In this document: positions 17,871-42,217 of the stretch, in pieces | Position numbering within the stretch: the stretch's first letter is position 1 | Layout of the letters: each line of letters begins with the position of its first letter | DNA from: a virus | Strand: one strand, 5' to 3' | DNA length: 64,000 nucleotides | Virus record (IMG/VR): IMGVR_UViG_3300009506_000005 | Location: 49,770-113,769 of that record | Position numbers and translations under genes: made by a program | Notes under the pieces: model-generated | What the model was told of the DNA's origin: nothing | Databases searched by the model: none | The model's input: only the letters and a program-made list of their open reading frames with translations

Positions 17871-17942
17871 TGCGGGGTGACGCAGTGGCAGCGTGTCGGG
17901 CTCATAACCCGAAAGTCGGCGGTTCAATTCCGCCCCCCGCTA
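17871..17942 (+). tRNA. tRNA-Met (anticodon CAT), initiator-like
   Basis: A full cloverleaf folds. The acceptor is 17871-17877 with 17935-17941; the D stem ACGC/GCGT has loop AGTGGCA. The anticodon stem TCGGG/CCCGA has loop CTCATAA (anticodon 17903-17905). The T stem GGCGG/CCGCC has loop TTCAATT. Three consecutive G-C pairs flank the anticodon loop, and positions 1 and 72 are T-T and cannot pair; both are initiator hallmarks. Pair 11-24 is C-G, not the A-U usual in bacterial initiators. CCA is not encoded. It could also be elongator Met or, if modified, Ile-CAU. Confidence 0.85.
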
Positions 17943-17947
17943 CAAAG

Positions 17948-28810: not shown

Positions 28811-30256
28811 ATGGTTCTCGCCATAACGAAGAAAACGGAATCAGATCTCACCGACTGGCTTGCCACGGAGGCCGGGTTCCTCCAGGGGCTGTGCCGGTAT
28901 GACGAGGAGCCGATCAAGCTCGACGCCTACCAGGCGGCGTTCCTGTCCCAGGACAACAAGTACCGCTGTGTGGAGAAGGCCAGGCAGGTTGGATTCTCGT
29001 TTCTCTTCGCCCTGGAGGCCGTGGCCAGATGCCACCTGCGGCCAGCTCAGACCTCGGTCTTCGTGTCCTACAATCTGAGCGACTCCAAGGAGAAGATCGG
29101 GTACGCGCGCCAGCTCTACGAGGAGATGCCCGCCGCGTATCAGAAGAAGCTGATCGTTGACTCCAAGCTGGAGCTCGCCTTCGAGAGCAACGGCTCCAAG
29201 AAGGTGAGCAGGATCATCTCCAACCCCAGCCGCGCGCCCCGCGGGAAGAAAGGGGACATCTACCTGGACGAGCTCGCGCACTATGTGGACGACAGGAGCG
29301 TCTACAAGGGATCCACCGCGCTCATCCTCCGCTCCCGCGGCCAACTGTCCATCTGCTCCACGCCCCTCGGGCGCCGCGGGGTCTTCTGGGAGATCGCGCG
29401 CCAGGAGCTCAAGCCGTACCGAGCCTACAAGAGACAGCGCGTGCCGTGGTGGCTCTGCCGGTTCTTCTGCGTGGACGTGGAGAAGGCAGCCGTGGATGCG
29501 CCGCACATGCCAACGGAGGATCGCGTCAAGCGTTTCGGTTCGGAGGGCATCGTCGATCAGTTTGATTCCCTCCTCCTCGAAGACTTCCAGCAAGAGTTCG
29601 AGCACGAGTACATCGATGAGAGCTACTCGTTCTTCCCCTACGACCTGATCATGCCCTGCACGGACGACCCCAGGGAGGGCGAGCTGGGGGGCTTGGACTT
29701 CTGGCGTGACGTGACCGATGCCGGCAGGGTAAGAGGGCGCCTCATTGCGGGGTTCGATGTCGGGCGTCACCGGGACTTGTCCGAGCTCGCCATCTTCGAG
29801 GAGATAGGAGAGCACAAGTTCTGCCGCATGCTCCAGCGCTTCGATCGCGTGCCGTTCGCCGTCCAGGAGGAGGAGTGCCGGCGCGTTCTCAACACCCTAC
29901 CGATCGCGCGTTTCTGTATCGACTCCACCGGGATCGGGATGCACCTGGCAGAGAACCTCTCCGTGGACTTCCCGCAGATCCAAGAGGTCACGTTCAGCAA
30001 CGAGGTGAAGGAGACCCTCTGCAACGATTTCAAGATCCTGCTCCAGCAACGCAGGATGACGCTCCCGAGCGATCGCGAGCTCGTGGCGCAGATTCACTCC
30101 ATCAAGCGCCGTGTCACCTCCACGGGGAAGGCCAAGTTCGAATCGGAGTCCACAGGGAAGGGGCATGCCGATCGATTCTGGGCGTGTGCCCTCGCTGTGC
30201 AGAAGGAGCGTGTCCCCATAGGCAAGCCCAGCGTGGGCTTCCGGGTAGTTGGATGA
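28811..30256 (+). CDS. terL: Terminase large subunit
   Basis: The 481-residue ATPase/nuclease packages DNA into the prohead. Walker A-like KARQVGFS (56-63), Walker B YLDE (151-154) and the SAT-like motif [10 protein letters not shown] (181-190) mark the motor. The RNase H-like nuclease shows [12 protein letters not shown] (D316) and CIDSTGIG (D371). Length is normal. It starts at ATG 28811 and is followed closely by the head genes. Confidence 0.93.
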
Positions 30257-30301
30257 GACGGCGGCACCCGTGATAGGATTGCCGAAACGAAAGGATCAGA
30301 G

Positions 30302-30598
30302 ATGAGACCTCAGCAAAAAGCACTTGATATCCCGGCCGCCATCGGCCAGGGGGCGCCCATCGATGTTTTCAACTTCCGGGATTCCTCGGTTCAGATCGGC
30401 GGCACGTTCGTGGCCACCATCCAGATCGAGGGGCGCCTGGACGATTCGATGCCGTGGAGCGCGATCGGTTCTCCCGTGACGGCTCCCGGGTTCGTGGACC
30501 TCCCCCACATCGTGAAGGACATCCGTGCGAATGTGACCGGATACACGTCCGGCACCCCCGAGGGCTTCTTCGCTGGGTTCAACGCGAGGACCGAGTAA
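30302..30598 (+). CDS. Small structural/decoration-like protein
   Basis: The 98-residue, all-beta protein (VQIGGTFVATIQIEGRLDDSMPWSAIG, then ANVTGYTSGTPEGFF) has the G-T-F...I.I.G..D pattern seen in many small phage structural proteins near head genes. SD AAAGGATC. Its stop overlaps the portal start. Exact role unknown. Confidence 0.6.
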   Translation: MRPQQKALDIPAAIGQGAPIDVFNFRDSSVQIGGTFVATIQIEGRLDDSMPWSAIGSPVTAPGFVDLPHIVKDIRANVTGYTSGTPEGFFAGFNARTE

Positions 30599-32418
30599 TG
30601 AGCGATGCGCCTGACAGCGTGAAGCTCAAGGTCGTCGAGAGTGCTGCGGACGGCACGGAGAAGAACAGGGAGATCATCTTCAAGGTAGCTGGAGAGGGTG
30701 CCGGCCTGGAGAGCAACGCGGTGGTCTCCACTCAGGAGACGGAGAATGGGTTCCTCGCGCTCGGAGCAATCGACCCTCCATACCCGCCAGATTCTCTCTG
30801 CCGCATCTTCGAGCACTCAAATTCGCTGAGGCAGTGCGTGGACGCATACGTCACGAACATTGAGAGCTTTGGCTTCCGGCTCGATCCGTTGATCGACTTC
30901 GAGAGCAGTGAGGCCGATGAGCAGATCGCCGATGCGATCTGGTTGTCTCGCGGAGGTGGCAGCGATCGGCCGTCCGATCAGGAGGTTGCCGAGAAGAAGA
31001 AGGAGATGGTGGCCGAGGCCGTCATGGAGAAGGCCAGCCTTCTCCGCTTCTTCGGTCAGGTGGGACTCGACCTCAACCTCACGTCCCTGCGCAAGAGAAA
31101 GCGCGGAGACCAGGAGGTGCAGGGGAACGCGTACTGGGAGATCCTCAGGAGCAAGAGCGGGGAGCCGGCACGGTTCGTCCACGTTCCGGCGCAGACCGTC
31201 CGCTTGATGCCGCTCGATCCTCGCATAGTGACCGTCAGGGAGAAGGTGAGGTCCTCGGTCTTTGCCTACACGGAGAAGCCGGCGAGGAAGCGCTTCCGCA
31301 AGTACGTCCAGATGATCAACGGGATGCCCACCGTCTACTTCAAGCAGTTCGGCGATCCGCGCACCTACTCGAAGAAGACAGGGGATGAGATCAGAGATCC
31401 CGAGTCTCATCAATGGGACTCAGGAGATGGTCCGGCGACGGAGATCATCCACTTCGAGATCTACTCGCCGAGGAGCGCCTACGGCGTGCCGCGGTGGATC
31501 GGTGCTCTGCTTTCCGTCCTCGGTTCTCGCAGTGCCGAGGAGGTCAACTACTACTACTTCGAGAACAAGGCCGTTCCCCCTCTTGCCATCCTCGTGAGCG
31601 GGGGACGTCTGGCTGAGGAGGCGATCCCTCGTCTGGAAACGTTCATCAAGGAGAACCTCCAGGGCTCCACGAAATCATTCCACAAGATCATGATCCTGGA
31701 GGCTGAGGGGGAGAAGGGTGGCGGAACAGCCGGGAACGTGAAGATCGAGATCAAGCCCCTGACCGAGGCCATGATACAGGAGGAGCTGTTCTCGAAGTAC
31801 GATGAGCGGAACATCGACAAGGTGGGGGAGGCGTTCCGTCTTCCGCGCATTCTCCGCGGGCAGTCCAAGGACTTCAACCGCGCTACTAGCCTGAGCGCCT
31901 TGCGGTTCGGCGAGGAGCAGGTCTTCCAGCCGGAGCGTGACGAGTTCGATGCGTGGATCAACCGCGAGATCTTCCCCCTGCTCAACTCGCGCTACTGGAT
32001 TTTCCGGACGAACGCACCGCTCACCCGCGATCCAGAACGCATGACGGAAATGGTCGTGAAGCTCGTGGAGGTGGGTGTTCTGACTCCGAACGAGGGGCGC
32101 CTGCTCGCGGGAGACATCTTCAACAGGGACTTCCGGGAGATCCGCGAGGACTGGGGACGCCAGCCGTTGAAGATGACTCTTGCGGGGATCAAGGGAGGGA
32201 ACGGCCAGAAGGGTGCCGATGGCATGGCCCTCGACGTTGTTGGTGGAAACGATCTGGACAAGATGCGCGATGGAGATGGGCGGGAGACGGTCATGTTCAA
32301 GGTAGCGAATCTTCAGGCGCTCCGGGACCTCTGCGATCAGCGTCTATCGGACATCGACGATCATCTGCTTGCCCAGGATCTTGAGGCGTTCCCCGAGATG
32401 GACGAGCTGGAGGAGTAG
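30598..32418 (+). CDS. Portal protein
   Basis: The 606-residue protein starts MSDAPDSVKLKVV (ATG 30598, overlapping the previous TAA). It shows portal-type blocks: LRQCVDAYVTNIESFGF, then YGVPRWIGALLSV...EEVNYYYFENKAVPPLAILVSGG, and FRLPRILRGQSKDFNRATSLSALRFGEEQVFQPERDEF. It forms the ring at the packaging vertex and docks terminase and connectors. It resembles PBSX/Mu-type portals. Confidence 0.9.
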   Translation: MSDAPDSVKLKVVESAADGTEKNREIIFKVAGEGAGLESNAVVSTQETENGFLALGAIDPPYPPDSLCRIFEHSNSLRQCVDAYVTNIESFGFRLDPLIDFESSEADEQIADAIWLSRGGGSDRPSDQEVAEKKKEMVAEAVMEKASLLRFFGQVGLDLNLTSLRKRKRGDQEVQGNAYWEILRSKSGEPARFVHVPAQTVRLMPLDPRIVTVREKVRSSVFAYTEKPARKRFRKYVQMINGMPTVYFKQFGDPRTYSKKTGDEIRDPESHQWDSGDGPATEIIHFEIYSPRSAYGVPRWIGALLSVLGSRSAEEVNYYYFENKAVPPLAILVSGGRLAEEAIPRLETFIKENLQGSTKSFHKIMILEAEGEKGGGTAGNVKIEIKPLTEAMIQEELFSKYDERNIDKVGEAFRLPRILRGQSKDFNRATSLSALRFGEEQVFQPERDEFDAWINREIFPLLNSRYWIFRTNAPLTRDPERMTEMVVKLVEVGVLTPNEGRLLAGDIFNRDFREIREDWGRQPLKMTLAGIKGGNGQKGADGMALDVVGGNDLDKMRDGDGRETVMFKVANLQALRDLCDQRLSDIDDHLLAQDLEAFPEMDELEE

Positions 32419-32427
32419 AGCACGCGG

Positions 32428-34527
32428 ATGTGCGGAAATTGCCACGCGGTCACGTCAGAGCCCGCAGAGGGGTTTGCTACACTCTGGCCACCGGCCTTTC
32501 TTGGGAACGATCAGGGTTCAGCCTTTAAGCTCGCCGGCATCTCCGGTGACACTCCGCGCGCTGCGAATGGATACGGATTGATCGGACCGAGCGGCGAGGC
32601 CATCCGCGTGAACGCCAGGACGATCGAGGAGGCCCGGGCCATCGCCTTCCTCGGAACAGCCGCTGGCCCGATCGACATCCTGGAGGCCGTGGCCATCGGC
32701 AAGGATGATCGGGTGGTGTTCCAGAAGCGCGAGCGCTTGCAGGTCGCCAAGGGCCGGGATGTCCACCGCGGAGTCATCGTGAGCTCGAACGGCTCGGTCA
32801 CGAAGGCCAAGCTCCCACGCAACCCGCGCAACCCTGAGAACTTCGACGAAGAGGTGGAGAAGCTCTCGAAGAAGACGAGCGCGATCGACAGGAAGTACCT
32901 GCTCCCGGCTGTGGCCTCCTATGTGGCGATGCTCAACCGGCAGAAGTGGGACGAGATGACGAAGGCGCAGATCAACAGCGCCTTCAAGAAAGCGGACGCA
33001 GTCTTCACCAAGAGCGTGGCAACGCAGGCGACGAAGGCCATGCCGCCGTGGGCCAAGGCAACCGGTGACAGCGGAGTTGTTGTGGGCAAGGGCGCCTTCT
33101 ACTCCGTGCACAAGGAGTATTTCGATCACATCTCGATTTCCTGGGACCAGCCGAACACTGTGGCCATCAAGCAGATAGGCGTGCAGGGCGGATGGTGGTA
33201 CAGGAACTCGGCTGGCGTCCGCTCCACGGCTCTCACAGCCGAGGCCCGCAAGATCGTCGAGCGCGGTATGCAGCAAGGGTTCGGCCGGGACCAGATCGCC
33301 AAGGACCTGCGCGCGCAGCTCGGCCGCAGCTGGAGGGCTGCGGGTTTCAACTACGCAAGGGTGAATGCGGCCGTGGCCCTGGGCCGTTCGCGTTCCTATT
33401 CAGAGCTAAAGAGTTACTTGAGCGCTGGCATCGAATGGCTTGAAATTAAAGCAGTTCAAGACGAGAGGACCACAGACATCTGCAAAGCTCTTGATGGGCA
33501 GGTTGTGAGCGCGTCGGCTGTGGACTCGGTGAATGAGGCTGCGGCGAATGTCAGGCGCCCAGAGGACATCAAGGTCGTCAATCCATTTCTGCGAGAGATG
33601 AGGAATCCACAGACTGGATTGAAGGAGATTCGGACGCGCACTGGCGTGAAGTTCGCAACGATCCTCTCTCCCGGAGCTGGGCTTCGCGACCAGAAGGGCG
33701 TCTACGCCTTCTCGAAGATGGGAACGCAGATGGCAGCGGAGGGCGTCGGAACTCCACCGTATCACGAATTATGTCGTTCGTGGACCGAACCAAGAGGGGA
33801 TATCTTCCAGGTTCCACGCGGGATGCAGCTCCGCTCGCCTCTCCAGCGCACCATTCCGCCGCCCAAGGTTCCGCGCGAGGTGAAGAGGCCGCACGAGCCG
33901 CTCAGGGTAGTGAAGAGCCCCACGCCGGGCAACCCCACGGTGATGGGCGTCCCGAGTGATCTGGACCGCCTGGACCCCACGGGACGCTTGCTGGAGATGG
34001 ATCCAGGGCGTCCCTTCGCCCTGCGCCCTGGGAAGCACGCCTCTTTCGCGACATTTCGCCCGAACGCAGCGGGCAATGCGTTCGTGACCGGATCACGCTG
34101 GCAGTCCCTCGAACTCGATCCGCGTCTCGCCCGCATGCCTCGATACGCTGATTGGGATCAGACGGACGCGCTCCGCAACTTCAAGGCCGATGCCAGAGAT
34201 CGCGTGGTCAACCTGTGGTCGAGGGCCATGAACCAGATTGAGGATGTGAAGGCGATCATCTTGTCGGAGTCCACGGGCGCTCGCCGGGTGAGCCGCGTGT
34301 GGCAGGTTTTCGATGCGCGGACGGGGAAGAAGACGTTCTACAGGTTCGATCAAGCGAAGCGCCCCACGCGCAAGTTCCTGATCGAGCTATCGAACGCGGA
34401 TGGCCAGAAGGCCGCGAAGCTGATACGCAAGCTCCAGGATACCGGATACATCACGAGAGCGTCGAATCCTGACAAGGTGTTTGGCAAGCTCGCGAAGGAA
34501 GTGGACGAGATAGGCAGGCCGCTCTAG
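32428..34527 (+). CDS. Head morphogenesis protein (Mu gpF/SPP1 gp7-like) with long C-terminal extension
   Basis: The 699-residue protein has the head-morphogenesis core at about 285-365 (ARVNAAVALGRSRSYSE, then AVQDERTTDICKALDGQVVS, then YHELCRSWTEP). A CGNC knuckle opens the protein. Beyond about 470 come a Pro-rich linker and another 200 residues of unknown fold. Relatives are minor head proteins bound to the portal; the extension is unusual. Confidence 0.8.
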   Translation: MCGNCHAVTSEPAEGFATLWPPAFLGNDQGSAFKLAGISGDTPRAANGYGLIGPSGEAIRVNARTIEEARAIAFLGTAAGPIDILEAVAIGKDDRVVFQKRERLQVAKGRDVHRGVIVSSNGSVTKAKLPRNPRNPENFDEEVEKLSKKTSAIDRKYLLPAVASYVAMLNRQKWDEMTKAQINSAFKKADAVFTKSVATQATKAMPPWAKATGDSGVVVGKGAFYSVHKEYFDHISISWDQPNTVAIKQIGVQGGWWYRNSAGVRSTALTAEARKIVERGMQQGFGRDQIAKDLRAQLGRSWRAAGFNYARVNAAVALGRSRSYSELKSYLSAGIEWLEIKAVQDERTTDICKALDGQVVSASAVDSVNEAAANVRRPEDIKVVNPFLREMRNPQTGLKEIRTRTGVKFATILSPGAGLRDQKGVYAFSKMGTQMAAEGVGTPPYHELCRSWTEPRGDIFQVPRGMQLRSPLQRTIPPPKVPREVKRPHEPLRVVKSPTPGNPTVMGVPSDLDRLDPTGRLLEMDPGRPFALRPGKHASFATFRPNAAGNAFVTGSRWQSLELDPRLARMPRYADWDQTDALRNFKADARDRVVNLWSRAMNQIEDVKAIILSESTGARRVSRVWQVFDARTGKKTFYRFDQAKRPTRKFLIELSNADGQKAAKLIRKLQDTGYITRASNPDKVFGKLAKEVDEIGRPL

Positions 34528-34568: not shown

Positions 34569-35003
34569 ATGACCGAGGAAGAGAAGAAAGACGGGAAGGG
34601 GAAAGAGGGCGAGAAGGACGGGAAGGACGAGAAGAAGGGTGACGAGGAGAAGAAGCCCGAGGAGGGAAAAGGGGGCGAGGGTGCCGCTGGCGACAAGGGC
34701 GGTGATGACAAGGAGAAGGATGGGGACGACGCCAAGGGCAAGGATGGCGGCGGTGATGACAAGGGGGACAAGGGTGGCGACGATGGAGGCGAGAAGCCGG
34801 TCAAGGACAAGCCCGAGTCCGGCGGTGAGGGTGGCGGCGGTAGTGACAAGGAAGACGGGAAAGGCGGGGACAGCGGGGGTGACGAGAAGGACTCCGGTGG
34901 TGATGGAGACGGCGACAAGGACTTCGCGTGGCCCGCTGATATGAACGCCAAGGAAGAGGACGAGAAGGACAAGATCAGCTTCGGAGACGACCCCGTCTTC
35001 TAG
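34569..35003 (+). CDS. Low-complexity K/E/D/G-rich protein
   Basis: The protein has 144 residues, of which the first 115 are almost only Lys, Glu, Asp and Gly. It ends with a short ordered-looking segment (FAWPADMNAKEEDEKDKISFGDDPVF). SD and AGGTAAAG precede ATG 34569. It is disordered by composition. Its place between morphogenesis and protease/scaffold genes suggests an internal head or scaffold-associated protein. Confidence 0.65.
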   Translation: MTEEEKKDGKGKEGEKDGKDEKKGDEEKKPEEGKGGEGAAGDKGGDDKEKDGDDAKGKDGGGDDKGDKGGDDGGEKPVKDKPESGGEGGGGSDKEDGKGGDSGGDEKDSGGDGDGDKDFAWPADMNAKEEDEKDKISFGDDPVF

Positions 35004-35012
35004 GAGGTCCCC

Positions 35013-38000
35013 GTGGGCAAGAGAGAAGGGAACTATCGAGCGCCGACCGGGAAGGTCTCGGGTGGCAGGAAGCCGGCGGCGAAGCGCGAGGACGTCGAGG
35101 CGACGATCGAGCTTGGCGAGGAGTCCGCTACCGCAGTGCTATCAGCGCGTTCGCTCGCGCAGAAGTTCGCCGAGGTGGCCGCTGGGTTCGATGACGATGT
35201 GATCGATCCACTTCGCGAGTGCGAGGTGGGAGAGAACGCGGTGGAGATCCTGGAGATCCTTCCGCTCGTCTCGAAGAATCTGGCAGCCGAGTTCTCACGC
35301 CTCCAGGATGAAGGTGGCGATGGGGAAGTCCCGCAGGTGGATACGGGCGATCCGCTGGAGATCGGCGCCGCCCTTCTCTCTTGCTCAGCGAACGTCAGGA
35401 AGTCCCTGGAGGACGCCCCGCGGGACATCGTAGAGGCCGTGGACCAGGGCATCGATTCCCTGCGGGCCTTTCTCTCGTTGCCGGATCAGCTCGATGGAGA
35501 GGACCATGCGGCTGAGTTCTTCACGAAGGCTGACCGCATTCCGAAGCCGTTCCGCTCGCCGGGTGGAAAGGCGCAGCTCGTCAACGTTCTTCTGTCCAGG
35601 GTTCCCGAGCACAAGGTCTACGTGGAGCCCTACGCTGGCTCGGCCACGCTGTTCTGGGCGAAGAAGAAGGTGGAGAAGGAGGTGCTTTCTGACCTGAACG
35701 AGGGCGTCGTGGGGCTGTTCAAGTTCTTGCAGGAGGCCGGAGAGGCGGACTTCGAGTGGATGCGGAAGCAGATCTGGGGCTACGACGCGGTCAACTTCAA
35801 TAAGCTCAAGGAGAAGGAGAGCGGCTCCGCACGCTACAAGGCATATCGCTTCAAGTACCTGAACCTCTACTCCATGCGCGGGCGTGGCGAGACCATCGAT
35901 GATTCCCCGCGCTCTCGCGGTCAGACGGGTGCCCTGTTCCTGCGGAACCTGGAGCGCTACAAGGAGCGCCTCGAAAACGTTCGTGTCATCCACGGTGACG
36001 CCCTGGAGGTGATGAAGAAGTACGATCGCTCTGGCGTCTTCATGTACATCGATCCTCCCTGGCGTCCAGAGCAGGGTTCTCCCGAGTGGAAGGCCTACGA
36101 CCACGAGGCGTTCGAGAAGGCGGTCAGTGGACTGAAAGCGAACGCCTTGGTCTCCTACCAGGGGAAGCTCGTACTGGGAGATGGATGGCGGAAGCACAAG
36201 CACACGAGCGTGCTGGGTGGCATCTCTAAGGAGACCACGCAATCCCTCTACTGGAACTACAACTTCCGTGGCGTTGAAGCCAAGCGCGAAGGGACGTCCG
36301 GATGCGAATTCTGCGATGCTCTCGCGGCCGAAGCCTTCGTCTGGGATGGCGGCATCATCAAGTCGTGTCACGAGCACGAGAGCCAGGCGCGCGAGCTGAT
36401 CGAGAACGTGAACAAGTCCGAGGTCCTGGCCGTCCGGGATTGCGAGCTACCCGAGCAGGAGGAGGTGGCGAAGCTCTCCATCGATGAGATGAACCCGCGC
36501 AGCCTGCGAGAGGTCAGCGACAGGGAGCTGCTATCCCTCAACCGGCGCCTGCATCAACTGTATGGCAAGAACTTCGAGGGCAACGACAAGATCACGTCTG
36601 GAGACCTGAACCGAGAGGATCTGGTCAACGCCTACATCTTCGTCTCGAACGAGATGAAGACGCGGGAGATGGAGCTGAACGATACTTCCTTGGCGATCGA
36701 GGCGCGGACGCTCGCCAAGGAAGAGGGGAAGAAGGAGCTTGCTCCGGTACTCCCGGGATCATCCGGCGCGCATCCGCTGATCAAGATCGAGGAGGTGCTC
36801 CCGCACTTCAAGTCCTTCAAGATCCGCATGCCGTTCCTTTGGCTCGTTGGCTCGCTTGCGAACATGGGCAAGACGGAGAACGACATCGACCTCCTCGTGA
36901 AGGGGCCCTGCTCCGAGGAGCTGCTCCAGGTGCTCAAGTTCCGTCTCGGGCGCATGTTGCCGCCGGAGCTGAGCAAGCGCCTGTCGGTGATGGAAGACGA
37001 GCTGGGTGGCCCGTTCACCTCGCATGTGGAGCTCGCCGACCTCGTGGTGGAGATGAGGCCGGCGTTTGCGGTCAAGGAGATGGCGCTCGCCAAGCAGGAC
37101 GACCCGCTCCTGGACTTGCCGAAGGAGGCCGGGAAGAAGAAGGCCGTCTTCCAGTACCACGCACGTGGGTCAAGCTTGCATCTGGATCTCAGGATGGAGC
37201 TCGCCGACTTCCTCGTGGGCTGGACCATGGCCAACCAGCGCTCTGGTAAGGTGCCAGTGATTGAGACGATGGACGAGTTGAAGAGGATCGGCTCCTCGTT
37301 CTCGCCGGACGGTGACCAGTACACGAAGCCCTTCCGCTCGCCAGCGAGACTGGCTGCGTTCCCGAAGAGCAGGCAGCCGGAAGTCTGGCTGGGGATATCA
37401 GCCAGGCGGTTCGAGCCCGGCGAGGTAGGCGCCTCGCGGAACGAGTACGGCGTGATCGTGGCCGTGGATCGGCCCTCTGTCGAGTACGGTACCCAATCAA
37501 GCCGCTTCCACGAATACTTCTTCACTGGGAAGGACGCCGCCGTGCAGGGCATTCTCGCCTTCCGCCAGCTCGTGGGGAGGGGAAAGGCCATCAAGCTGGA
37601 GGGCGAGGGGGGCGATCCATTCGAGGAGGGGCGCCGCACGCCGGCTGGCCGCACCTTCTGGACCTCGATGCTCACCTCCTCGGCGCTACCCTCCGTCCTC
37701 AAGCGGCGCGCAGTGCACGAGGGCCGAATGCCGCCCGATGGGAAGAGCGCGATCCCCATCTCGCTGGAGAGGGTCACGCCCAAGGAGTTCCGCTACTGGG
37801 AGGCCAAGGGTAAGGAGGCACGCGAGATCCGCGATGCGCTGGTCTCCTCCCGCTTCTTCACCGAGCAGAACGTAGGCATCGTGGACGGCGAGTTCCGGCG
37901 CCTCGTCCAGAAGACCTACCTCTACACCGGCGACGGCTCTGATTTCACGTTCAAGGCCGAGTCCGAGCCATTCGCCTTGTCTTGGCAGAGGTGGAAGGGT

Positions 38001-39902
38001 CAGAGCGTTGTGAGGACCGGGCCCAGCCGCCAGGTGTGGCACCTGACAGTCGGTGGTCTCCCTGGCTGGAAGCTCCAGCGTGATCCCCTCGCGGGTGACG
38101 AGGTGACGGCCGTCGAGAAGCCGAAGGCCAACTCCGCGCTCTTCGAGCTCGAAGGTGATGTCGAGCCTGGAAAGGAGCTTGGCGGCGAGGTCCTGAACGA
38201 TACCAAGGCCACGCCCTCGGAGATCTCCATCGTCGATGAGGGCCGGGCGGAGATCATCGACAGGAAGCCCGGGCTCATCCGCCTGCGGTTCAGGGGCAAG
38301 AAGCTCCAGGGGATCTACACGCTGGAGGCCGAGGAGAAGGGATCGGAGATCTGGACGTTCGCCAAGGATGCCGAGGCAGAGAAGAGAGAGGAGGACGACC
38401 CCTGGAAGACGGGTGATGTGGAGTTGGCGGACATCGAGGACACGGAGAAGGCGATCCCCGTCCGTGGAGGGGTGCAGATCTGGGACCCTGAGAAAAAGGA
38501 CCCGAACGTTGACCGCGAGCAGCTGGAGCCACTGGCCATCTTTTCTCCGATGAAGCCGGCGAAGCGGTTCGATGACACGGCTGCGGCCGTCAAGGAGTGG
38601 GGCCATGGCGCCGCCATCGAGCACGGCGTGTTCGTGGAGCCCAAGGAGAACGGTTTTAGATTCAGCGTCCAGAAGAAGGGCGATCAGGTCTTCTCGTTCA
38701 CCGAGGACGAGAAGCGGGACTTGCTTCCGCTGCTTCCAACGGTGCGCGAGGCTCTGGAGAGAATCCCCGGGGAATGGATCCTGGACACCGAGTTCATGGA
38801 GGAGGAAGAGGGCGGTGGGTTTGTTCCGCGTCGTGACTTGGCGAGGTTCAGGGGGAAGGAGCCGCAGGACGACAAGCGCGTGCGCTTGAAGGTGGTTGAC
38901 CTGCTCTACCACAACGGCCGCAACTTGCTCGGACGCCCGTACCACGAGCGCCGCTCTGCCCTGCGTCGGTTCTTCGATGGGAAGAAGACGCTGGGACCGC
39001 TGGTCATCACGCCCACGAAGCTGGCGAAGAGCGCTGAGCAGCTGCAACGAGCGATCGCCTGGGCTCGCAAGGTTCCTGGGTCCGAGGGCGCCATGCTCAA
39101 GCTGTACGGATCCACTTACTCCCTCGGTGGCGAGAACTCGGCGTGGGCGAAGATCAAGGACTCGCGAGAGATTCGCGCCATCGTCTACGAGAGACATCCT
39201 GTCAAGGATTCGCCCGGGGTCTACAACTTCTTCGGCGCCGTGGGGCCCGTGCGCGAGGATGAGTGGAATGAGACTGTGGAGGTCGGAGGAAAGACCTACA
39301 CGCCGGTGGGGCGCACCTTCAACTCGAAGGAGGAGGCCGAGGTCGGAGATGTCATCCGCGTGGAGGCCACGGAGATCCTCGTTGACGCGAGTGGCGACAA
39401 GAAGTCACTGCGCTGGTTCACGCCCACGGTGATCGAACGGGTGGACACGAGACCAATGACGGCGGCCGATGTCGTAAGGCTGGCGAAGCCCGAGGAGATC
39501 AAGAAGATCGCGGACGCCATCCTCCAGCGCGAGATCCCCATCTTCAAGGCTGACGAAGAGCGGCTCGTCTACGGCGAGGTCCTCATCCCCGAGGAGGTGG
39601 ACGCGCAGAAAGAGATCTACAGCGAGGAGGAGGTGCGCCAGGCGGCCCACGGGTTCATGGAGAACTTCCAGAACCTCGGTGTCATGCACAAGGAGCTCGC
39701 GAACGGGCGCCTCAAGATCCTGGAGAGCTTCATCGCCCCGGTGGAGATGGAGATCGCTGGGAAGAAGATCAAGAAGGGCACATGGCTCCTCGCCGTCCGC
39801 GTGATTTCGGACAAGCTGTGGAAGCAGGTGAAGGACGGAAAATGGACCGGATTTTCTATCGGCGGATCGGCCGTTCGCGTGGCGGAAACCTCGGCAACTT
39901 GA
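35013..39902 (+). CDS. Polyvalent fusion: Dam methyltransferase, NTase-like, LigD-PE-like, ATP DNA ligase, XkdF-type protease
   Basis: The 1629-residue protein starts at GTG 35013 after AGGAGG. Residues 176-425 form a Dam-type adenine methyltransferase (KPFRSPGGK, VEPYAGSATLF, catalytic DPPW 347-350). Residues 605-630 hold an NTase-like GSLANMGKTENDIDLLV. Residues 712-740 resemble the LigD 3'-phosphoesterase (HARGSSLHLDLRMEL). Residues 1200-1460 are an ATP-dependent ligase: motif I KENGFR with Lys1211, LDTEF, VVDLLYHNGRNL, EGAMLKLYG, WAKIK. Residues 1505-1625 match the XkdF phage protease (VYGEVLIPEEVDAQKE, MHK, ESFIAPVEM, WTGFSIGG). It is probably the prohead protease, packaged with enzymes that may act on incoming DNA. 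Confidence 0.85.
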   Translation: MGKREGNYRAPTGKVSGGRKPAAKREDVEATIELGEESATAVLSARSLAQKFAEVAAGFDDDVIDPLRECEVGENAVEILEILPLVSKNLAAEFSRLQDEGGDGEVPQVDTGDPLEIGAALLSCSANVRKSLEDAPRDIVEAVDQGIDSLRAFLSLPDQLDGEDHAAEFFTKADRIPKPFRSPGGKAQLVNVLLSRVPEHKVYVEPYAGSATLFWAKKKVEKEVLSDLNEGVVGLFKFLQEAGEADFEWMRKQIWGYDAVNFNKLKEKESGSARYKAYRFKYLNLYSMRGRGETIDDSPRSRGQTGALFLRNLERYKERLENVRVIHGDALEVMKKYDRSGVFMYIDPPWRPEQGSPEWKAYDHEAFEKAVSGLKANALVSYQGKLVLGDGWRKHKHTSVLGGISKETTQSLYWNYNFRGVEAKREGTSGCEFCDALAAEAFVWDGGIIKSCHEHESQARELIENVNKSEVLAVRDCELPEQEEVAKLSIDEMNPRSLREVSDRELLSLNRRLHQLYGKNFEGNDKITSGDLNREDLVNAYIFVSNEMKTREMELNDTSLAIEARTLAKEEGKKELAPVLPGSSGAHPLIKIEEVLPHFKSFKIRMPFLWLVGSLANMGKTENDIDLLVKGPCSEELLQVLKFRLGRMLPPELSKRLSVMEDELGGPFTSHVELADLVVEMRPAFAVKEMALAKQDDPLLDLPKEAGKKKAVFQYHARGSSLHLDLRMELADFLVGWTMANQRSGKVPVIETMDELKRIGSSFSPDGDQYTKPFRSPARLAAFPKSRQPEVWLGISARRFEPGEVGASRNEYGVIVAVDRPSVEYGTQSSRFHEYFFTGKDAAVQGILAFRQLVGRGKAIKLEGEGGDPFEEGRRTPAGRTFWTSMLTSSALPSVLKRRAVHEGRMPPDGKSAIPISLERVTPKEFRYWEAKGKEAREIRDALVSSRFFTEQNVGIVDGEFRRLVQKTYLYTGDGSDFTFKAESEPFALSWQRWKGQSVVRTGPSRQVWHLTVGGLPGWKLQRDPLAGDEVTAVEKPKANSALFELEGDVEPGKELGGEVLNDTKATPSEISIVDEGRAEIIDRKPGLIRLRFRGKKLQGIYTLEAEEKGSEIWTFAKDAEAEKREEDDPWKTGDVELADIEDTEKAIPVRGGVQIWDPEKKDPNVDREQLEPLAIFSPMKPAKRFDDTAAAVKEWGHGAAIEHGVFVEPKENGFRFSVQKKGDQVFSFTEDEKRDLLPLLPTVREALERIPGEWILDTEFMEEEEGGGFVPRRDLARFRGKEPQDDKRVRLKVVDLLYHNGRNLLGRPYHERRSALRRFFDGKKTLGPLVITPTKLAKSAEQLQRAIAWARKVPGSEGAMLKLYGSTYSLGGENSAWAKIKDSREIRAIVYERHPVKDSPGVYNFFGAVGPVREDEWNETVEVGGKTYTPVGRTFNSKEEAEVGDVIRVEATEILVDASGDKKSLRWFTPTVIERVDTRPMTAADVVRLAKPEEIKKIADAILQREIPIFKADEERLVYGEVLIPEEVDAQKEIYSEEEVRQAAHGFMENFQNLGVMHKELANGRLKILESFIAPVEMEIAGKKIKKGTWLLAVRVISDKLWKQVKDGKWTGFSIGGSAVRVAETSAT

Positions 39903-40102: not shown

Positions 40103-41212
40103 GTGGATTTTCTGGACCACTTGGCGAGCATCGAGAAGCAGGTCACGCGCCTGTTGGACATCGAGGTCAAGGAGGTCTCTGTTGTGGACCGTGCGGCCAA
40201 CAAGCGCCGCTTTCTCATCGTCAAAAGGGAGGACGACATGCCGGATCCCATCGGTAAAGAAGTGAAAGAAGACGGGCAGGGTAACCTCTCGACCGAGGAG
40301 GACAAGATGGAGGAGGAGGACGAGAAGAAGGCAGACGCCCCTCTTCACGCCAAGCTCGCCGGCGAGGCGATCGACTCCCTCATCATGAAGGTGACCGGCC
40401 TGCGGGAGAAGCTCACGAGCGGCATGGCCACTCTGGAGGAGATCAACGACCTGAGCAGCGCCTTCTGGCCGCTCATGGACTCCCTGCGCTCGGCTGCGGT
40501 GGTGATCGCCAAGGCCGACGTGGAGAAGGCCGACATGGAGATCCCGAAGCCCGTCAAGGAGGCTGTCCTGCGGACGGCCACCGAGGCGATGGAGCGCCTG
40601 CTCTCGGCTGTCAACGGTCTCAAGGAGGCCCAGACGAACGATGAGCAGTCCGACGCCCCGCTGCCCGAGGAGTACACCAAGGAGTTCAGCGCGATCGCCG
40701 GGCTGCTCTCCGGAATCTCCGAGAAGTACCCGTCGCCGAAGTCCGCCGCCTGCGGGGACAAGGAGAAGGCGAAGAAGGGCGACGCGGAGAAGTCCGATGC
40801 CATGGAGAAGGTCATCGACAAGCTCGATGCCATCTCCAAGAAGGTGGACAGCGCCCTCTCCAGCGTGAAGAAGGTGGACGAGGAGGAGGAGAAGAAGGGC
40901 GACTCCAAGGAGGAGAAGGGCGGCGAGGGCGAGGAGGAAGAGAAGCCGAAGGCAGAGGAAGGCAAGAAGCCCGAAGGCGACGGCGAGGCCAAGGAGGTGG
41001 AGAAGGCCCTGGCCAAGCGCGACAAGGAGATCACCGATCTTCGCGAGCAGGTCGCGAAGCAGGCGGAGAAGATCACCGCACTCGAAGAGGCGGATATCGC
41101 CCCCAACTCGTCAGCCCCCGAGGGCGTGGCGAAGATGGAGGAAGAGGATCCGTGCTGGCGAAGTGACATGGCGGACGAGTCCGAGGTGGACGCGGACGTT
41201 TCCTTCGATTAG
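40103..41212 (+). CDS. Scaffold-like protein with protease-tail motif
   Basis: The 369-residue protein starts at GTG 40103 after GAGAGGTAA. The N-terminus contains DIEVKEVSVVDRAANKRRFLIVKRED, a sequence commonly found at the end of prohead proteases, here separated from the XkdF domain upstream. The rest is helical, highly charged and coiled-coil, as in scaffolds. It likely guides capsid assembly and is cleaved away. Confidence 0.65.
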   Translation: MDFLDHLASIEKQVTRLLDIEVKEVSVVDRAANKRRFLIVKREDDMPDPIGKEVKEDGQGNLSTEEDKMEEEDEKKADAPLHAKLAGEAIDSLIMKVTGLREKLTSGMATLEEINDLSSAFWPLMDSLRSAAVVIAKADVEKADMEIPKPVKEAVLRTATEAMERLLSAVNGLKEAQTNDEQSDAPLPEEYTKEFSAIAGLLSGISEKYPSPKSAACGDKEKAKKGDAEKSDAMEKVIDKLDAISKKVDSALSSVKKVDEEEEKKGDSKEEKGGEGEEEEKPKAEEGKKPEGDGEAKEVEKALAKRDKEITDLREQVAKQAEKITALEEADIAPNSSAPEGVAKMEEEDPCWRSDMADESEVDADVSFD

Positions 41213-41281: not shown

Positions 41282-42217
41282 ATGAACGACAACCGCTCGA
41301 TCATCGAAAAAGCGGACCTCGCCGTAAGCGATCTGATCTCGGGAGGGGGCTATCTCCAACCGGCACAGGCGGCGAAGTTCATTCGGCTCTTGATCAAGGA
41401 GAGCTCGGTCATGAACATGGCGTCGGTCAAGCCGATGAAGGCCCCGAAGGAGCTGATCGAGAAGATCCGCTTCGGTTCCCGGGTCCTGCGCGCTGGCACC
41501 GAGGCCGTGGCGCTTCCGGTGGCGGACCGGGTGAAGCCGGACCTCACCAAGACGGAGCTGGACGCCAAGCTGTTCAAGGCGGAGACGCGGATCAGCTACG
41601 AGGCGCTGGAGGACTCCATCGAGAGGGGCCAGCTCAAGAACACGATCATGCAGGAGCTCGGCAAGGCCGTCGCCCGGGACATGGACGAGGTGATCGTGAA
41701 CGGCGACACCGCGAGCGCCGACACCTTCCTCGCGCAGCTCGACGGCCTGCTCAAGCAGACCACGAGCAACGTGACGGACGCCCTGATCGCCCCGCTGGAC
41801 AAGGACATCCTGCGGGACATGCTCAAGGCGATGCCGAGCGAGTGGCTCCGCGACAAGAAGGCGATGCGGTTCATCACCTCCGTGGACGCCCTGCTCGACT
41901 ACCGCAACACGCTCGCGGACCGCGAGACCGTGGCCGGGGACCGGTGGCTCACCGAGGACGTGCCGATCATGTACTCCGGTGTGCCGCTCGTGGACGCGCC
42001 GCTCTTCCCGGAGAACCTCGGCGCGGGGAGCAACGAGACGAACGTCCTGCTCTCCGACCCGAAGAACATCCAGGTCGGCATCTGGCGGCAGATCCGCCTG
42101 GAGACGCAGAAGGACGCCCCGGCCGGCGTGCTCATCATCGTGGCGACCCTCCGCTTCGACGTGAAGTGGGTCGAGGAGACCGCCGCGGTGAAGTGCATCA
42201 AGGTCAAGGTGGCCTAG
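41282..42217 (+). CDS. Major capsid protein (HK97 fold)
   Basis: The 311-residue protein shows the capsid pattern: N-terminal helix, [16 protein letters not shown], then [21 protein letters not shown], then the P-domain to A-domain section [18 protein letters not shown], and [18 protein letters not shown]. Length is typical. A long leader with AGGTAAAG and ACAACTAGAAAG precedes ATG 41282 (SD CGGAGGAAA). Confidence 0.88.

Follow-up and report, generated by a model that had tools for sequence, protein, structure and literature searches.

Why would a virus make its head protease as the last domain of a protein that also carries enzymes for modifying and joining DNA? The question is raised by one gene in the window, a 64,000-nucleotide stretch at the very end of the 113,769-bp record of an uncultivated virus (IMGVR_UViG_3300009506_000005). 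The frame at 35013..39902 on the plus strand, to which the domain segments and the head genes given below as start..end also belong, runs for 1629 codons without an internal stop and starts with a GTG that lies 7 nt after a perfect AGGAGG Shine-Dalgarno sequence. In order, the 1629-aa product (the polyenzyme) comprises a D12 adenine methyltransferase (MTase), a nucleotidyltransferase (NTase), two LigD-type phosphoesterase (PE) folds, an ATP-dependent ligase with an OB-like region, and an XkdF protease. The original prediction, that MTase, NTase, PE, ligase and protease share a single frame, was borne out. Of the segment profiles that it named, three matched above curated Pfam cut-offs (MethyltransfD12 at 183-383, DNA_ligase_A_M at 1185-1382 and Peptidase_S78_2/XkdF at 1512-1623), and the fourth, LigD_N, remained below its own (E 0.02; 15.5 bits against 31.1).

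The fusion is not an accident of the data. The same fusion is found in independent contigs of many metagenomes, with 36-52% identity across hundreds of residues, and these relatives refute the idea that separate genes were joined by faulty assembly or sequencing, a reading to which we assign practically no probability. They also rule out an artefact produced by the loss of a stop codon, the error that the original prediction had itself raised. Together with the E-values of the domain matches, the many contigs exclude a chance origin of the fusion.

No family matched the N-terminal region (aa 1-172; 35013..35528) with an E-value under 0.05. The MTase domain (aa 183-383; 35559..36161) matches PF02086 at E 5.3e-19, with 69.4 bits against a cut-off of 22. 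Its Dam-type DPPW motif lies at residues 347-350, where it had been placed, and DPP(Y/W) and F/YxG are kept in 14/14 homologues. The domain scores below the cut-off for Dam proper (NCBIfam TIGR00571, 66.7 against 114.85 bits). Downstream of it lies a conserved 'mid' segment (aa 426-575; 36288..36737; ..VSDRELLSLNRRLHQLYG..), which, like the N-terminal region, matched no known family. By its motifs, the NTase is a minimal domain of the Pol-beta superfamily (aa 590-700; 36780..37112) with G613-S614, D624-x-D626 and D676. Among 26 homologues the G[GS]...DxD...D motif is well kept (G in 25/26, D624 in 24/26, D626 in 25/26, D676 in 19/26), which upholds the NTase-like motif of the original prediction at the level of residues. 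At the level of fold the match is weak: the best hit of the predicted model is the MntA-HepT entry 6m6u (prob 0.87, E 0.33). The Pfam model NTP_transf_2 (PF01909) was reached in one relative only, L022, at E 0.042. In two other relatives (L019:1807-4011 and L023:4772-6022) the NTase motif is preceded within its ORF by a LAGLIDADG-like insertion, either an intein or a homing endonuclease.

Because the LigD_N match of the window protein is sub-threshold and the ligase scores well below the LigD cut-offs, the PE assignment was checked separately. The region consists of PE1 (aa 703-868; 37119..37616; H716/H723/D725/R727 and H833), a conserved helical segment, PEmid (aa 869-985; 37617..37967; MPPDGxSAIP..PKEFRYWE..), and PE2 (aa 986-1118; 37968..38366). 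The relative L019 matches LigD_N at 1.4e-5 over almost the whole model, with 25.6 bits against the same cut-off of 31.1. A profile built from 31 relatives aligns to the archaeal PE structure 3p43 at E 3.2e-7, with PE1 and PE2 both placed on the same PDB segment, and profile A4 aligns to 3p43 over PE2 at 7.6e-7. The alignment of PE1 on its own is weak (7 bits), yet it includes the H-H-D-R residues, a set conserved in 35-37 of 38 homologues. An AlphaFold2 model from the 31-sequence alignment has a mean pLDDT of 84; an earlier model from 9 sequences reached 52 and was poor except in PE2. The top seven Foldseek matches of the newer model are all LigD PE structures (best E 3.1e-6, TMt up to 0.79), and a BFVD fold search returned a single significant match, which is unnamed. 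Since the profile aligns both segments to 3p43 and the leading Foldseek matches are all LigD PEs, the protein contains two tandem PE-like folds, PE1 with its catalytic residues and PE2 having lost them, where the original prediction had seen one LigD-PE-like motif.

The ligase adenylation domain (aa 1165-1385; 38505..39167) matches PF01068 at 3.9e-19 (69.6 bits against 26.2), and it has the complete motif set that had been read from the letters: Lys1211 in motif I (KENGFR) followed by motifs III, IIIa, IV and V. K1211 is kept in 24/29 homologues, and E1260, E1358 and K1380 are also conserved. The OB-fold-like region that follows (aa 1386-1492; 39168..39488) has no OB match in Pfam; the NCBIfam NHEJ ligase model extends to residue 1492, and a profile of our own detects a counterpart in 24/43 clusters of relatives. 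Pfam matched no replicative-type N-terminal DNA-binding domain in the polyenzyme. Among NCBIfam models the general dnl1 model scores best, above the LigD models, and the ligase falls far under the LigD/NHEJ cut-offs (46.5 against 227.75 and 46.2 against 373.2 bits). Elsewhere in the same virus record there is an RtcB-type RNA ligase (L075:12104-13300, record 29104-30300).

The combination invites comparison with LigD, which consists of PE, POL and LIG and which Ku-expressing mycobacteriophages borrow from their hosts (PMC7719229). Like bacterial NHEJ LigD, the window protein unites a PE fold, an ATP-dependent ligase and a nucleotide-adding enzyme. In contrast to LigD, it has a Pol-beta-type NTase in place of the AEP polymerase and a duplicated PE, and the set is fused to a capsid protease in a record without Ku. 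Pfam and NCBIfam scans of the polyenzyme found no POL-domain match of the AEP type, and searches of the 113.8-kb record, itself possibly incomplete, revealed neither Ku nor a Pol A family polymerase. As there is no AEP match and no Ku, and the scores lie below the LigD cut-offs, the PE-NTase-ligase set is, judged from sequence, LigD-like and not LigD.

The C-terminal domain (aa 1503-1629; 39519..39899) is an XkdF / Peptidase_S78_2 head protease, confirmed by PF14550 at 2.4e-29 (102.3 bits against a cut-off of 24). Its presumed catalytic site is nearly invariant, with H1559 in 41/42 and S1615 in 42/42 homologues. The gene lies in the head operon, as predicted, and its neighbours have family matches to the terminase large subunit (28811..30256), the portal protein (30598..32418) and a MuF-type minor head protein (32428..34527) on one side and the major capsid protein (MCP; 41282..42217) on the other. 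Between polyenzyme and MCP lies a scaffold-like protein (40103..41212) whose N-terminal motif (EVSVVDRAANKRRFLIVK) corresponds to what stands ahead of XkdF in PHROG 3017. The PHROG is split over the two genes, with positions 4-33 matched in the scaffold-like protein and 35-157 in the polyenzyme C terminus; motif and protease have swapped sides of the gene boundary. Between MuF and the polyenzyme lies an extremely charged, K/E/D/G-rich protein of 144 aa without a family match (34569-35003). A tRNA-Met (cat) gene is present at 17871-17943, and a Baseplate_J protein encoded in the record points to a virus with a contractile tail.

Could the protease be made without its cargo? A scan of the polyenzyme frame showed that in-frame internal starts near the protease part lack a convincing Shine-Dalgarno sequence, for which reason a free protease from an internal start was rejected. 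With no convincing internal start and no further XkdF or S78 protease found in the 113.8-kb record, the protease seems to be made only together with the enzymes that precede it.

To place the gene in a family, we made a pattern scan of viral contigs with an alignment from this region and obtained 51 related loci (L numbers), 16 of which had already been found in an earlier scan. Adding the window and ANMV-1 brings the set to 54 PE-containing ORFs, which fall into 43 clusters at 80% identity. Alignment queries were required, as the whole polyenzyme used as a single-sequence query matched nothing in viral contigs. Because the loci were picked by PEmid patterns (PKEFRYW, MPPDGxS), the presence of PEmid everywhere follows from the way of selection, and the counts should not be read as a census. 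XkdF occurs in 29 of the 43 clusters and is the C-terminal-most domain in 29/29. The ligase is found in 22 clusters, the NTase in 18 and the MTase in 12; ligase and XkdF occur together in 12/43. The complete set of MTase, NTase, PE, ligase and XkdF is present in three (the window, L033 and L036), and the L033 protein, at 1972 aa, has two MTases. Almost all contigs that are long enough have the fusion in the same slot, portal-MuF-[enzyme-XkdF]-scaffold-MCP. Exceptions are an inverted portal/MuF order (L027/L028), an NTase ORF between MuF and the fusion (L048), no detected MuF between portal and fusion (L049) and no detected scaffold motif (L066). Beside polyenzymes in L033, L055, L057, L062, L065 and L066 lie MuF-domain proteins of 1058-1215 aa, which likely have extra C-terminal cargo domains.

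The enzymes also travel without the protease. The order NTase-ligase-PE recurs without XkdF in ANMV-1, L046, L050 and L060, NTase-ligase-MTase-PE occurs in L058, and L051 and L072 have the enzymes as separate neighbouring genes of the head region. The L058 protein (L058:3435-9467) is 2011 aa long and reads NTase-ligase-OB-metal-dependent hydrolase (phrog_392)-MTase-PE. L038, L039 and L045 have the enzymes in separate ORFs, with an XkdF-scaffold gene downstream (in L039 and L045 there are two such ORFs, directly ahead of that gene). A TAG between motifs IIIa and IV splits the ligase into adjacent ORFs in these three (L039:4544-9841; L045:2287-7824), where the frame is the same, and also in L040. 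This could mean a two-part ligase, readthrough or recoding; a true gene split appears likelier than recoding, since L040 has additional non-coding sequence after the TAG. Other relatives have lost the adenylation domain (L011, L034, L035) or retain PEmid-XkdF alone. At the sensitivity of our scan 84,980 cellular genomes yielded no relative, plasmids gave ligase-like matches only, and among 50,697 phage records ANMV-1 alone held the core, as a partial set. The family is found here in viral sequences only.

Substitution patterns in close pairs show purifying selection. Across the XkdF, PE1, ligase, NTase and MTase domains, dN/dS was 0.04-0.29 in three informative close pairs. For XkdF it was 0.04-0.17 (L063/L065, L011/L034, L038/L045, L011/L035), and for active enzyme domains 0.06-0.29 in the informative pairs. 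The very distant pair L061/L069 gave 0.64-0.66, which is not reliable. At 30-50% identity, MTase, NTase, PE1 and ligase still have their catalytic residues.

Parts of this architecture have precedents. Polyvalent proteins, described by Iyer et al. in 2017 (PMC5512222), likewise combine several unrelated enzymes per protein in a phage head context, with C-terminal capsid-type peptidases and with adenine MTases and Pol-beta NTases among their cargo; the window protein resembles them in its several unrelated enzyme domains, encoded close to the portal and terminase genes of a phage. They differ in having a zincin as their main peptidase and MTases that are largely EcoKI/TaqI-like and accompanied by a SWI2/SNF2 helicase; the term 'DNA ligase' is absent from the paper, in which no passage on a LigD PE was found either. 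PHROG 13242 ('unknown function') has an N-terminal D12 MTase and a C-terminal XkdF in one protein, but at ~450 aa it lacks NTase, PE and ligase. Gp18 of Arthrobacter phage Salgado (PHROG 14859), downstream of MuF, also has an enzyme N-terminal to XkdF, but its cargo is a 2H phosphoesterase (LigT family). That protein (L006:4269-5390) is annotated 'RNA ligase' and represents another cargo type on the same protease. The cultured Rhizobium phage RHph_TM16 has homologous portal (31% identity), MCP (32%) and XkdF (39%), whereas its XkdF is a separate 210-aa gene in the same slot without enzyme cargo, in keeping with the original remark that most phages have a small, separate protease. ANMV-1 virus AJP62006 (KP703175; 866 aa), encoded directly downstream of the portal gene, unites NTase, ATP ligase and PE1-PEmid-PE2; it differs by the order NTase-ligase-PE and by lacking MTase and XkdF. 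Two XkdF proteins labelled 'DNA methyltransferase', from PAK_P1 (L004:2983-3453) and phAPEC8 (L005:4878-5357), were rejected as fusions because they hold the XkdF domain only; they are 156-159 aa long, and the label was probably passed on to them from members of PHROG 1530 that are fused. The claim of novelty therefore needs narrowing: MTase-XkdF, 2H-XkdF and polyvalent proteins with C-terminal capsid peptidases came before, and the open-licence literature searched yielded no head protease joined to a DNA ligase and LigD PE, nor NTase-PE-ligase(-MTase)-XkdF as a whole. The two-domain MTase-XkdF form is already known, and the ligase/PE/NTase version appears to be undescribed. On sequence grounds, the best reading of the polyenzyme is a variant within the polyvalent class, a cargo-carrying prohead protease.

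Prohead proteases of tailed phages act inside the prohead, so that partners fused to one should be brought there. XkdF has been proposed to act in this way as a head protease (PMC7824862). We consider it on balance probable that the enzymes are enclosed in the prohead, freed and active on packaged DNA. The polypeptide would be produced from the head operon late in infection, and an early replicative role is unlikely given synthesis alongside head proteins. The C-terminal XkdF would dock with the scaffold and be enclosed, carrying the N-terminal enzymes along; once activated, the protease would degrade the scaffold and probably cleave the linkers within its own polypeptide. After release, MTase, NTase, PE and ligase may remain with the packaged DNA and work on ends and nicks, in the capsid or upon ejection into the next host. 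We infer release by self-cleavage, retention and ejection by analogy with the polyvalent-protein model (PMC5512222) and with P1 DarB, a 250-kDa anti-restriction protein of which ~40 copies are packaged and believed to enter the cell (PMC9024508). DarB is similarly very large and DNA-modifying, with an adenine MTase; unlike the polyenzyme, its packaging is demonstrated (PMC9024508), it has an N-terminal packaging signal and no fused protease, and its MTase is joined by a helicase and no ligase. The cargo-carrying reading is supported by XkdF being last in 29/29 clusters, by the protease slot ahead of scaffold and MCP, by a protease that seems to be made only together with its cargo and, for working enzymes, by conserved active sites and dN/dS <1 in close relatives. 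Against it, a capsid has room for a limited number of 180-kDa proteins only, and the lost ligase cores and PEmid-XkdF-only forms imply that the protein can do without any given cargo enzyme. The lack of Ku, of an AEP match and of a recognisable N-terminal DNA-binding domain on the ligase also counts against it.

Alternatively, the polyprotein may serve the producing cell: cleaved before or during prohead assembly, its enzymes would repair and methylate DNA awaiting packaging, with no delivery to the next host. Expression of the head operon coincides with packaging, and the enzymes of L038, L039 and L045 are separate ORFs. The record moreover has no other recognisable DNA ligase (no NAD ligase, one PF01068 match only) and no second D12 MTase, so the polyenzyme's may be the only such enzymes of the virus. 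This account, which we think unlikely, would not explain why the enzymes are so often joined to the one enzyme that the prohead must take in, and N-terminal to it in every case. It is also possible, though we hold the idea only tentatively, that packaged domains are independent counter-defence effectors, with the MTase directed against restriction, the NTase acting as an MntA-like protein AMPylase on HEPN toxins, and PE and ligase countering nuclease damage. The weak MntA-HepT fold match, the protein modification proposed for polyvalent NTases by Iyer et al. (PMC5512222), the 2H cargo of Salgado gp18 and the variation of cargo between lineages fit this idea. A joint reaction is favoured by the way in which NTase, PE and ligase remain associated while their order has changed several times, even where XkdF is missing. 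That the enzyme domains are inactive remnants, or serve the protease as structural adaptors that bind DNA, is very improbable. PE2 has indeed lost its catalytic residues, and the OB region left behind after loss of the ligase core changes more quickly (dN/dS 0.36-0.51 vs 0.08 where the ligase is kept), but the other catalytic residues persist at the identities given above and close pairs are under purifying selection.

If the polyenzyme is a cargo-carrying protease, what would the cargo do? A common task for NTase, PE, ligase and often MTase is best supported by the repeated occurrence of the set, in different arrangements and also as individual genes of the head region. PE would clean 3' ends, the NTase add or transfer a nucleotide and the ligase seal, and the MTase would mark DNA against restriction. 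In its boldest form this is a virion-borne, LigD-like end-joining machine with a Pol-beta-type NTase replacing the AEP polymerase, its enzymes cut loose from the protease in the capsid to heal, seal and methylate the incoming viral genome without Ku or new protein synthesis. We regard that full scheme as doubtful. Encapsidation, self-cleavage, delivery and joint end repair are presumed steps.

In summary, shuffled forms of this protein in dozens of other uncultured viruses suggest that DNA-repair enzymes may be loaded into particles alongside the protease, in a family missed by current annotation because its PE and NTase domains fall under standard profile cut-offs. The finding extends the polyvalent-protein concept to a DNA ligase and a LigD phosphoesterase. 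If the cargo is packaged, an essential assembly protease would also tag enzymes for loading, which would equip virions for DNA repair and modification in a simple way and amount to a natural design for enzyme delivery. It would also offer a testable answer to how the linear genomes of such phages may be repaired or joined at entry without Ku.
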